Assembly: GCA_016937155.1 (NCBI GenBank)
Contig: JAFGWM010000051.1
Location: 1-64,000, forward strand
DNA: 64,000 nt
DNA from: Deltaproteobacteria bacterium
GTDB taxonomy: Bacteria; Myxococcota_A; Polyangia; HGW-17
Direction of reading: 5' to 3'
Position 1 is the first letter of the stretch; each line of letters opens with the position of its first letter. The notes below the pieces were generated by a model, which was not told where the DNA came from, did no database searches, and saw only the letters and a program-made list of their open reading frames with translations. Position numbers and translations under genes: made by a program. Of this stretch, positions 12,608 through 16,620 are shown one piece after another.

Positions 12608-12775
12608 ATGACTATTAATTCAGTAGTCTTCAATGAAAACAGTATTCCGGCTGTCGAGGCCGATGAACCTCCATCTTTTGTAAACTGCAGAAAATATGCT
12701 GTCCTTCCACGTCATTGTCTCAGGGGTGCACACGCTTTATCTGACGGAGTGTTGCCCTATGGCCCCCCCGGATAG
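12608..12775 (+). CDS. putative precursor peptide (55 aa) of an ATP-grasp peptide-modifying system
   Basis: ATG has GGAG 7 nt upstream. The 55-codon frame ends at TAG, 65 nt before the first ATP-grasp gene, with no terminator between. The first about 26 residues contain the acidic residues E10, E17, D19 and E20, like a leader. From C27 on the peptide is basic and rich in Cys, His, Gly and Pro (C27, H36, C37, H42, ending LPYGPPG). The coding DNA is richer in G+C than the flanks, as expected for a constrained sequence. I do not recognise the family. A precursor role is inferred from position and composition. A run of seven C at 12763-12769 makes the last residues sensitive to sequencing error. 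Confidence 0.65.
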   Translation: MTINSVVFNENSIPAVEADEPPSFVNCRKYAVLPRHCLRGAHALSDGVLPYGPPG

Positions 12776-12840
12776 CCGTTCCTAAAAAACAAACAAATAG
12801 ATTAATAAAATATATTCCTTTTCAATTAAGGAGAAGTGCG

Positions 12841-13890
12841 ATGAAAATAGGTTTCACATACGACCTGAAAGATGACTACCTTGCAATGGGTATGTCAGAA
12901 GAAGATACAGCAGAATTTGATAAAATTGACACCATCACAGGGATTGAATCAGCAATAGTTTCTCTGGGGTATGAGTGTGAGAAAATCGGAAATATACAGT
13001 CTCTTGTCAGAAGACTGGCTTTGGGAGAAAAATGGGATATCGTTTTCAATATTTCAGAGGGACAGCATGGAATTGGAAGGGAAGCACAGGTTCCAGCTAT
13101 TTTAGAAGCGTATAATATACCATACGTATTTTCTGATCCCCTTGTGCTGTCACTAACTCTTCATAAGGGCATGACTAAACATGTCATAAAAAGTCACGCT
13201 ATTCCAACTCCAGAGTTTTTCGTTGTTGAAACACCGGAGGATATTGATAAGGTTGTTCTGGAATATCCTCTTTTTATTAAACCCGTTGCCGAAGGTACCG
13301 GAAAAGGTATCAGTGCCAGAAGTCTCGCTACGAATCCTGAAGAACTGAAGGAGAGCTGTATTGAACTCCTCACACGCTTCAATCAGAGTGTTCTTGTGGA
13401 ACGTTATCTTCCTGGAAAAGAGTATACCGTTGGAATAGTCGGCAAAGGTGAAAACGCCCGTGTCGTTGGAATGATGGAGATTTCCGTTAAACCGGATGAG
13501 GATGGAAGTGTTTATGGATTTCTCAACAAACAGAACTATGAAGAAATAGTTATGTATTCTCCTGTTAAAAGCGATAAGAGAGAAATGTGCAAAGCCGTTG
13601 CCTTAAGTGCCTGGAAAGCTCTGGGTTGTTCTGATGGAGGAAGAGTTGATCTCAAAGAGGATTATTTTGGAATACCTAACTTCATGGAGGTAAACCCTCT
13701 TGCGGGTTTAAATCCAGTTCACAGTGACCTTCCAATTCTTGCAAGAATGAATGGAATAAATTTTGAGGAACTAATTTCCCTTATATTATCAGAGGCATTT
13801 AAAAGAACTGGTCTACAGTCAGAATCCTCGAGAATCGAAAGGAATTTCGGTTATGAATATACTGATATTAACAAGCTCCGTTTCCCCTGA
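12841..13890 (+). CDS. ATP-grasp ligase of the D-Ala-D-Ala ligase (Ddl) family, first of two
   Basis: This is an ATP-dependent carboxylate-amine ligase. The N-terminal domain contains WDIVFNISEG, and the central ATP-grasp fold has the nucleotide lysine K147 in LFIKPVAEGTGKGIS, VERYLPGKEYTVG (E187, E194), and the metal ligands in GGRVD (D270) and FMEVNPLAGLNP (E283, N285). At 349 aa the length matches Ddl. It is not the housekeeping Ddl by context: it lies between a precursor-like peptide and a second Ddl-like gene. AAGGAG lies just upstream of the ATG. The substrate is unknown; acyl-phosphate activation of a peptide or amino-acid carboxylate is the family chemistry. Confidence 0.88.
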   Translation: MKIGFTYDLKDDYLAMGMSEEDTAEFDKIDTITGIESAIVSLGYECEKIGNIQSLVRRLALGEKWDIVFNISEGQHGIGREAQVPAILEAYNIPYVFSDPLVLSLTLHKGMTKHVIKSHAIPTPEFFVVETPEDIDKVVLEYPLFIKPVAEGTGKGISARSLATNPEELKESCIELLTRFNQSVLVERYLPGKEYTVGIVGKGENARVVGMMEISVKPDEDGSVYGFLNKQNYEEIVMYSPVKSDKREMCKAVALSAWKALGCSDGGRVDLKEDYFGIPNFMEVNPLAGLNPVHSDLPILARMNGINFEELISLILSEAFKRTGLQSESSRIERNFGYEYTDINKLRFP

Positions 13891-14842
13891 AGATTCTGCA
13901 GATGAACAGGATACCCTGATTGAAGCAGAATATGTTCGGATTCAACTCAGTACCGGAAACAACCGCGTTGAAATCTTTCCTTTCACAAGGAATCCAATGG
14001 AGGTTTTAAATAAACTGAGCAAATTCAATGCTGATATGGTATTCAATCTTGTTGAGACCATTGGTGGGAAAAGTGCTGAAATTTTCAAGGTATTATCACT
14101 TCTTGAACTGATGGATATCCCATACACCGGTTCATCATCCAAAGGAATGATGCTGTCAACTGATAAAATTCTGGCTAAAAGAGTTCTAAAGGGTTGTTCA
14201 ATAAGTACACCGGCAATGTTAAATAGTATTGAAATTACTGATGAGGAGCCATTTTCAGGACCGTGGATACTGAAACCGTCTTCTGAAGAAGGCAGTAGTG
14301 GATTCCTTGAAACATCTGTTTTCTCAGACTGGATAGAGCTTTGTAATTATCAGAAAAAACTACCTTCCCATATAGATTATATGGTTGAAAAATTTATAAA
14401 TGGCAGAGAATTCAATGTTGCTGTTCTTCCCTCTGAAAATAATTATTACTGTCTTGGAGTCTCAGAAATAATATTCAAAAACTTTCCTGAAAATAAACCC
14501 AGAATTCTTGATTACAAAGCGAAATGGGAACCTGACAGTTTCGAGTATGAAAATACCATCAGATCTTTTGAGTTTTCTCCTGAAGATGAAATACTTCAGC
14601 ACACTCTTAAAAACGAAGCAATCAGGGGTATCAGAGCACTTGACATTGATGGATACTGTCGAGTTGATTTCAGGGTTGATGAGAATGGAGTACCATACAT
14701 ACTTGAAATAAATGCAAATCCCTGCATTTCACCTGATGCAGGGTTTATGGCTGCCGCAGCACAAAGCAGTTTCCAGCCTGATAACATCATACATCAGATT
14801 ATCAGTCAGGGGCAGTGGAGGCACTTTCATGGAAAAAGTTGA
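13853..14842 (+). CDS. ATP-grasp ligase of the Ddl family, second of two
   Basis: This is a second, divergent Ddl-like enzyme (329 aa): ADMVFNLVETIGG in the N-domain, WILKPSSEEGSSGF with K141, the VEKFINGREFNVAV strand, and the metal site RVDFRVDENG...EINANP (E285, N287). The catalytic residues seem intact. It starts at an ATG with AAAGGA 9-10 nt upstream inside the end of the previous gene (38-nt overlap), so the two are translationally coupled and probably made in equal amounts. Two ligases in series could add two units, or the proteins could form a heteromer; the sequence does not decide. Confidence 0.88.
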   Translation: MNILILTSSVSPEDSADEQDTLIEAEYVRIQLSTGNNRVEIFPFTRNPMEVLNKLSKFNADMVFNLVETIGGKSAEIFKVLSLLELMDIPYTGSSSKGMMLSTDKILAKRVLKGCSISTPAMLNSIEITDEEPFSGPWILKPSSEEGSSGFLETSVFSDWIELCNYQKKLPSHIDYMVEKFINGREFNVAVLPSENNYYCLGVSEIIFKNFPENKPRILDYKAKWEPDSFEYENTIRSFEFSPEDEILQHTLKNEAIRGIRALDIDGYCRVDFRVDENGVPYILEINANPCISPDAGFMAAAAQSSFQPDNIIHQIISQGQWRHFHGKS

Positions 14843-15317
14843 AATTTCCGAAGGAATTTTATCCAGTAAAGAAACAGAGGAAATTGTTGATCTTGCTTCG
14901 ATGACCGGGTTTTTTAATTCTGAAGAGCTTATTATTCTTAGAGAACTGGCATGTGAATGCTATGACAAGAAAAACACCGGAGATTATCAGTTCATTCTTG
15001 GGAAGAATTATTCAGGGAAAATTATTGGTTTCAGTTGCTGGGGGAAAATCCCCGGTACAGCATCCGGATATGATCTCTACTGGATTGCTGTGGATAAGAA
15101 ATATCAGGGTAATGGATTAGGAAGATTTATTCTGGAAACAACCGAAAAGGAAATTCATAAAAAGGGAGGCTCAAGAATTTATATTGAAACTTCCTCAAGG
15201 GAGCTTTATATCCCCACAACTGCTTTTTATAAGAAATCCGGCTACACAAAAGCAGCCATGTTAGAAGACTTTTATGCAGATGGAGATTCTAAAATTATTT
15301 TTCAAAAAGTTCTATAA
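14829..15317 (+). CDS. GNAT-family N-acetyltransferase of the ATP-grasp locus
   Basis: This 162-aa GCN5-related acyltransferase carries YWIAVDKKYQGNGLGRFIL with the acetyl-CoA pyrophosphate loop Q-G-N-G-L-G, a preceding beta-bulge strand (YDLYWIAVD), and the C-terminal AFYKKSGY region. The ATG at 14829 has GGAGG 7 nt upstream and overlaps the ATP-grasp stop by 14 nt; an earlier in-frame start at 14712 would overlap far more and lacks support. Coupling to the ligases suggests it acylates the same product, either to finish it or to protect it. This is inference. Confidence 0.88.
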   Translation: MEKVEISEGILSSKETEEIVDLASMTGFFNSEELIILRELACECYDKKNTGDYQFILGKNYSGKIIGFSCWGKIPGTASGYDLYWIAVDKKYQGNGLGRFILETTEKEIHKKGGSRIYIETSSRELYIPTTAFYKKSGYTKAAMLEDFYADGDSKIIFQKVL

Positions 15318-15432: not shown

Positions 15433-16620
15433 ATGAACCATAACTTAAAGTTTTTAATCTTACTTCTCGGAGTCGCAATTGTTTCCTGGATTATCACCAG
15501 AATTGCCATTATTCTGGCTCTGAAAAATGATGTGGTTGATCATCCCAGAGAATCAAGATTTCATGAAAATGTAACTCCTCTTCTAGGTGGAATATCATTC
15601 AATCTTACATTTATCCTTGGATGTATTTATTTTTTCCCCCTGCATACAGTTGTTCTTCTTTTTTCCTCAATAACTGGAATTTTTTTGGTTATACGCAAAA
15701 AAAAGGTCTCATTGTTGTTGTCATCACTGATTTATATGGGGTTATACACATATCTGGTGCTGAAATTTCCTGCAGGAAAAATGAACAGTTCATGGCTATA
15801 TCTTCTTGGTGGTGGCCAGATTATTTTTCTCACAGGATTATGGGATGATGGAATCCGGGAACTTGATGCAAAACGCAAACTGCTGTTCCAGTTTGTTGCA
15901 GCCCTCTACTTTATACTTCCAGGCCAGACTGTGACCTTTTTCCCGTTTCCCGTCAATTACATGGTTACCACTTTCTGGATTGTTTCTCTCACCAATGCAT
16001 TCAATCTGATTGACGGAATGAACGGTCTTGCTTCTGGTGTCGCATTTCTCAGTGCAGTATTTTTCGGACTGATATCTCACTATACGGGTCAGACTCAACT
16101 ATCATGGTTCTGTTTTATCTTTGGCGGAGCCATTGCAGGATATATTCCCTTTAATTTTCCAAAAGCAAGAATATTCATGGGAGACAGTGGCAGCATGTTT
16201 CTTGGCTTCATTCTGGGAAGCATTGCAATTTTCGGTACATGGCGCACAAATCTGCCGGCAATCAGTCTGAGTGTTCCTCTTATGGTACTGATGTATCCAC
16301 TCTTTGATGTCGCCCTTGTAATGTTCAACAGGATTAGAGAACGACGTTCTCCTTTTCAGGGGGGGAATGATCATTCTCATCATCGGCTGGTAAAGATGGG
16401 GCTTTCGCCATTTGACGCAGTGCTGTTTATTTATCTGGTGGCTTTCTACAATGGATTCAGTGCATACTTCATTACTATGATTTCATACCGAAGTGGATTA
16501 AAAATGCTGTTTTTCACCATGGCTGTTATGACTCTTTTGGGGCTCAGACTTTCTTTTGTAAACGGTGAACTGAAGAGACAGACAAAAGAGTTTGAAACTG
16601 TTCCAACTGACAGGGAATAA
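15433..16620 (+). CDS. undecaprenyl-phosphate sugar-1-phosphate transferase (MraY/WecA/TagO family)
   Basis: This polytopic membrane enzyme transfers a HexNAc-1-phosphate from UDP-sugar to undecaprenyl phosphate, starting an envelope glycan. Family motifs are in order: LWDDGIRELDAKRKLLFQ with D138-D139, NAFNLIDGMNGLA (N188-D194), FMGDSGS (D251), and the cytoplasmic GNDHSHHRL that typifies WecA/TagO rather than MraY. It has about 11 membrane segments and 395 aa. The start ATG has AAGG 3 nt upstream. No other glycan genes are adjacent, so the polymer is unknown. It is convergent with the CDP-alcohol transferase. Confidence 0.93.
   Translation: MNHNLKFLILLLGVAIVSWIITRIAIILALKNDVVDHPRESRFHENVTPLLGGISFNLTFILGCIYFFPLHTVVLLFSSITGIFLVIRKKKVSLLLSSLIYMGLYTYLVLKFPAGKMNSSWLYLLGGGQIIFLTGLWDDGIRELDAKRKLLFQFVAALYFILPGQTVTFFPFPVNYMVTTFWIVSLTNAFNLIDGMNGLASGVAFLSAVFFGLISHYTGQTQLSWFCFIFGGAIAGYIPFNFPKARIFMGDSGSMFLGFILGSIAIFGTWRTNLPAISLSVPLMVLMYPLFDVALVMFNRIRERRSPFQGGNDHSHHRLVKMGLSPFDAVLFIYLVAFYNGFSAYFITMISYRSGLKMLFFTMAVMTLLGLRLSFVNGELKRQTKEFETVPTDRE

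Follow-up and report, generated by a model that had tools for sequence, protein, structure and literature searches.

The window, by which we mean the whole stretch of 64,000 nucleotides analyzed here, derives from a deltaproteobacterium and hosts four consecutive genes on the forward strand. The first is an ORF of 55 amino acids (12608-12775, +), which starts with ATG, has a good ribosome-binding site (GGAG, 7 nt upstream) and encodes a protein ending in YGPPG. After a gap of 65 nt it is followed by lig1 (12841-13890, +) and lig2 (13853-14842, +), which encode two Ddl-like ATP-grasp ligases, and by a gene for a GNAT acetyltransferase (14829-15317, +). The overlap is 38 nt between lig1 and lig2, and 14 nt between lig2 and the GNAT gene; a 201-aa ORF starting at 14712 is the same GNAT frame with a longer choice of start. 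The coordinates and the matches to PF07478 and GNAT agree with a preliminary description of this locus, which had seen in the four genes a candidate system for peptide ligation. Directly 3' of the GNAT gene lies a glycosyltransferase family 4 gene (PF00953, WecA/MraY-like; 15433-16620), outside the conserved operon.

Both ligases match the C-terminal domain of Ddl (PF07478; E 1e-24 for lig1 and 2e-20 for lig2). The predicted structure of Lig1 has the Ddl fold (TM about 0.8 against Ddl structures), and Lig1 retains the invariant ATP/Mg residues K147, E187, R268, D270, E283 and N285. The comparison with D-Ala-D-Ala ligase proper, made on sequence and predicted structure, also reveals differences. 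Both proteins score below the cut-off of the curated Ddl models (147.4 bits for lig1 and 114.4 for lig2, cut-off 243), the Ser loop HEGSSVG of Ddl is replaced by AEGTGKG in lig1, and the genes keep company with kamA rather than with cell-wall genes. Among the best 25 matches listed, the top ones are Ddl and Van models, not ATP-grasp maturases of the graspetide type. Conservation within the operon is highest for lig1, with 52-60% identity to its counterparts in many phyla, and lig2 is more divergent. In a second genome of the same genus (G001) the three enzyme genes occur in identical order, with 75, 44 and 45% identity for lig1, lig2 and GNAT, respectively.

We scanned genome contigs with an alignment of lig1, which detected relatives of this gene at more than 570 places, and kept 80 loci, distributed among Deltaproteobacteria, Bacteroidetes, Spirochaetes, Acidobacteria, KSB1, Calditrichaceae, WOR-3 and others. 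The conserved operon order is kamA–lig1–lig2–(GNAT/HDAC)–GNAT. kamA lies directly or nearly 5' of lig1 in 73 of 84 loci, which span many phyla, and lig2 and GNAT, the usual last gene, mostly follow. When the neighboring ORFs were clustered, kamA-lig1-lig2-GNAT emerged as the sole strongly conserved unit; some loci of Spirochaetes and WOR-3 have only the adjacent kamA-lig1 pair. The standard partner kamA is absent from the window locus, and the class relatives G051 and G057 carry a KamA of the lysine-2,3-aminomutase family in place upstream of lig1. Fourteen of the 84 loci host a gene that fuses a GNAT-like domain to a histone-deacetylase/acetylpolyamine-amidohydrolase (HDAC) domain (for example, L083, 257-2044, and L089, 4206-5999), which suggests acetylation and deacetylation of one amine. 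No protease, hydrolase, peptidase or exporter is conserved among the clustered neighbors of the 84 loci. An intracellular product is therefore plausible, as had been supposed when neither proteases nor exporters were seen in the operon of the window. Likewise, no cell-wall genes, efp, EpmA-like genes or genes of lysine/arginine biosynthesis were recognized among the conserved neighbors.

Since the first gene of the operon encodes a radical SAM enzyme of the lysine-2,3-aminomutase family, the pathway probably uses beta-lysine. Four operon KamA proteins that we compared with curated models all belong to family TIGR00238 and are nearer to lysine-specific than to glutamate-/arginine-specific or EpmB models; they reach 468-505 bits against TIGR03820 (cut-off 525.4) and 236-273 bits against the EpmB model TIGR03821 (cut-off 369). 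An enzyme of this family and a GNAT are also encoded together in AblA/AblB, the pathway of the osmolyte N-epsilon-acetyl-beta-lysine, in which beta-lysine is the intermediate (PMC3543383, PMC9337991). Beta-lysine is a likely intermediate here as well, but the operon adds two ATP-grasp ligases, its KamA falls below the AblA cut-off and bears an additional N-terminal tail, and the GNAT of the window, identified by domain match, lies far below the AblB model (TIGR03827, 15.2 bits, cut-off 205.1). The beta-lysylation of EF-P by EpmB/EpmA similarly relies on a KamA-type enzyme that makes beta-lysine for ligation to an amine; it differs in that the operon KamA does not reach the EpmB cut-off and lacks an efp or EpmA-like gene in its conserved surroundings. 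The predicted product of the operon is a small peptide that contains beta-lysine. A lysine-2,3-aminomutase would convert L-lysine to beta-lysine, and Lig1 and Lig2 would each use ATP to activate a carboxylate for coupling to an amine, yielding a short beta-lysine-containing amide. The GNAT would then acetylate an amine, which in some species the HDAC-like deacetylase may edit.

All 69 operon KamA with a complete N-terminus bear an extension of 46–130 aa that contains a short motif. In 63 of them it reads acidic–E-P-P-[S/G] or a close form, and in the other six EVPL. The strict motif occurs in 55 of the 69, compared to none of 345 control ORFs (first 90 aa of unrelated ORFs of related loci), and is missing from lig1, lig2 and GNAT. 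KamA proteins of family and order relatives that are not linked to the ligases are also devoid of it. The median distance between the KamA start and the motif is 20 residues; a variable linker (29-88 residues) comes next, and several operon KamA repeat the motif in tandem. Its Glu is nearly invariant (60 of the 63 EPP-type proteins, with Q, K and D once each). At L177 (8033-10435) and L194, in genomes G215 and G216, KamA is part of a longer ORF (about 800 aa) that has an extra domain and two EPP motifs.

Judged by its sequence and surroundings, the 55-aa ORF of the window is the detached N-terminal tail of an operon KamA. Its residues 18-24, A-D-E-P-P-S-F, are encoded by GCC GAT GAA CCT CCA TCT TTT (12659-12679, +), so that the ORF belongs to what we define in this analysis as EPP-tail proteins, namely those with an acidic E-P-P-[S/G] near the N-terminus and located beside lig1/lig2 or on KamA. 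In G001 a 46-aa ORF occupies the same position and reads DDEPPGS at the motif; the two proteins have D-E-P-P-[S/G] in common and little else. This counterpart, together with the absence of the motif from the 345 control ORFs, confirms that the 55-codon gene is real. The preliminary description had proposed to look for the 55-aa frame in related genomes. The motif recurs beside the ligases, but when the 55-aa sequence itself was used as the query against 59 relatives, it matched only itself, apart from one marginal match with internal stops. Conservation is therefore visible only as the motif.

Overall, 12 genomes of two distant lineages keep an intact stand-alone tail ORF while the KamA body is gone. 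Five of them belong to the family of the window organism (G000, the window organism itself, and G001, G004, G006 and G007). In G004, G006 and G007 the tail is a 71-aa ORF with L-D-E-E-E-E-P-P, which precedes lig2 rather than lig1 and whose stop overlaps the lig2 start (ATGA); lig1 of G007 lies on a different contig, without such an ORF. The other seven genomes come from one Bacteroidales family, in which tail-only ORFs of 111-157 aa replace KamA and nine relatives keep the full enzyme. These relatives were obtained by a family-level search; a class-wide search around G318 with a strict cut-off returned only the query genome. According to parsimony on the lig1 tree, the KamA body was lost at least three times, with the window lineage clearly apart from Bacteroidales and weak support within Bacteroidales.

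The order of a peptide, two ATP-grasps and a GNAT resembles microviridin-type clusters, and the number of genes is the same as in these graspetide systems. Accordingly, the small protein could be a RiPP precursor, with its basic C-terminal part as a core peptide that the two ligases extend and the GNAT acylates. We consider this very improbable. The Cys/His/Gly/Pro-rich C-terminal part, which the preliminary description had taken for the core, is not conserved between species: the C-terminal halves differ among G000, G001 and G004 and drift in the stand-alone ORFs of Bacteroidales, and only the acidic EPP motif region is conserved. The segment that corresponds to this C-terminal part forms, in most relatives, a linker inside KamA. 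Moreover, no peptidase or exporter is conserved, and the ligases match Ddl models instead of graspetide maturases among the families listed. What stands of the proposed peptide-ligation system is thus a real small ORF in a ligase-ligase-GNAT operon, but the peptide is the tail of an enzyme and not a classical precursor. The locus also resembles LysW/LysX, in which a small acidic protein is found beside an ATP-grasp ligase. The 55-aa protein, however, lacks the C-terminal Glu motif of the EDWGE type, its EPP motif sits inside the sequence and in most cases belongs to KamA, and the conserved neighborhood contains no genes of lysine/arginine biosynthesis.

To measure selection on the stand-alone ORFs, we compared amino-acid changes along pairs of related sequences. 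Between G318 and G725, changes affect 3 of 77 sites in the first 31 or so codons and 47 of 279 in the rest (p=0.003), and between G728 and G729 they affect 1 of 78 and 65 of 224 sites, respectively (p=6e-9), with small numbers of sites in both pairs. The dN/dS of the rest is about 0.5-0.9, compared to 0.03-0.09 for lig1, and the Bacteroidales ORFs drift almost neutrally after the motif. The same trend is detectable in the stand-alone loci as a drop of identity past the motif region and a new rise at the next gene. Protein-level selection, another check suggested at the outset, therefore acts on the first 31 or so codons, and the remainder drifts. Stand-alone ORFs may in principle be decaying, functionless relics of KamA, and a degenerate KamA start is indeed still present within those of G318, G725 and G723. 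The constraint on the motif region and the persistence of intact ORFs in 12 genomes of two distant lineages make this highly unlikely, as does the genus of the window organism, which retained the motif while lig2 and GNAT fell to about 45% identity.

Constraint is also detectable at the level of codons, as GAR-CCY-CCN-RGT over the EPP motif, beyond what the amino acids require (KamA N-extensions of L075-L154; window 12665-12676). The first Pro of the motif is encoded by CCY (CCT or CCC) in 61 of 63 KamA, compared to 225 of the 374 other Pro (60%) of the same extensions (p=3e-10), and the first codons of other PP pairs are CCY in 101 of 251 cases (40%). These counts include related sequences more than once, and the pattern holds in 56 less redundant sequences. 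The motif Gly is GGT in 18 of 20 cases and the Ser is AGT in 21 of 37; the window, with CCT for the first Pro, matches most relatives. We rejected a programmed frameshift at the motif, as the alternative frames close at varying distances and none is conserved. Neither this part of the window nor the surroundings of the tails in 12 related loci yielded a known RNA element or family, and a hairpin pairing CCUCC with the Shine-Dalgarno GGAGG is visible by inspection in some loci only.

The case for a function during translation rests chiefly on this codon signal. Once KamA had been lost, the beginning of its gene may have been retained as a translated leader acting in cis, whose E-P-P codons, placed early in the first cistron, slow or sense ribosomes (for example, in response to EF-P or tRNA-Pro status) and thereby set the expression of the operon. 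The motif is indeed located no further than 70 codons into that cistron, and in G728, G729 and G322 the 5' UTR and the start of the ORF are conserved at the DNA level even though dS in lig1 reaches 0.9. We nevertheless hold this explanation to be possible but doubtful. The near-invariant Glu, with Asp almost absent, and the residue after PP, most often Ser and not Pro, Asp or Trp, both speak against it, and six proteins have EVPL in place of EPP. The motif is accompanied neither by a conserved alternative frame nor by a known RNA family. In G318, G725 and G723, furthermore, synonymous sites of the motif region change freely and amino-acid sites do not. Finally, in G226, G216 and G323, where KamA and lig1 are on separate contigs, KamA keeps the motif and no motif ORF was found before lig1.

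The four genomes with stand-alone tails that we checked in detail (G000, G001, G318 and G322) each encode a KamA that is unlinked to the ligase genes and lacks the motif. Homologs of Kdd adjoin it in G000, G001 and G322, as in lysine fermentation. The stretch read in G318 shows no Kdd, but the genes 3' of KamA there are collinear with those of G322. In the window organism, the AblA-type KamA and Kdd lie side by side in a lysine-fermentation-like arrangement (G000:C34, 39902-42312; L183, 11903-14313), and both score above the cut-offs of their curated models (593 and 267 bits). These data suggest that any source of beta-lysine would satisfy the pathway and that the tail is required for a different purpose. 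If the tail only tethered KamA to a ligase, its retention without the enzyme would be left unexplained.

We favor, with a probability of about one half, the reading that the window hosts a KamA-less form of a widespread beta-lysine ligation operon, whose detached tail acts most likely in trans. Beta-lysine would be supplied by the unlinked KamA of lysine fermentation, and the E-P-P-[S/G] motif, working without the KamA body, may act on the ligase machinery by docking to it or activating it. Several observations count against this reading. In an AlphaFold2 model of a natural read-through KamA-lig1 fusion, built on a shallow alignment (77 rows, 13 paired), the tail is disordered (pLDDT 34-43) and does not visibly dock on lig1; G019 has lig1 and no clear motif; and the tail precedes lig2 in G004, G006 and G007. 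In addition, a peptide acting purely in trans does not explain the codon constraint beyond the amino acids.

The tail could instead be an acceptor or carrier, with the ligases attaching beta-lysine or another residue to it, for instance at the motif Glu, and the product being built or stored on it as on LysW. ATP-grasp ligases such as LysX, RimK and those of graspetides commonly use Glu carboxylates or peptide ends. The near-invariance of the Glu, the tandem copies of the motif and the retention of a free small tail protein where beta-lysine can be made elsewhere would all fit. In single proteins, however, the Glu is replaced by Q, K or D, the C-terminus is not conserved, and the conserved operon offers no protease or hydrolase for release; we regard this explanation as unlikely, and favor a factor acting in trans over both it and the cis leader. 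If true, it would reveal a new type of ribosomally made amino-acid carrier, on which Lig1 and Lig2 assemble a chain of beta-lysine and which is in most cases attached to the beta-lysine-producing enzyme but occurs as a free protein in certain lineages.

The kamA–ligase operon is widespread and apparently undescribed: we found no mention in the open-access literature on aminomutases with ATP-grasp, Ddl or GNAT, the coverage of which is incomplete, so that an earlier mention is possible. The likeliest earlier survey is reportedly one of amidoligase neighborhoods in Mol. BioSyst. in 2009. The operon represents a conserved pathway of four to five genes in many environmental phyla, which appears to make a beta-lysine-containing metabolite. 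The loss of the enzyme body where another KamA can supply beta-lysine, with the short tail staying behind, is a natural experiment that separates the substrate of the pathway from a second role of the motif and makes both testable. Ddl-like ligases occur in a further arrangement, as many class relatives (for example, G013:C596, G022:C53 and G028:C51) carry an ORF of 700-880 aa with two fused Ddl-like ATP-grasp domains, which forms a related but separate subfamily.
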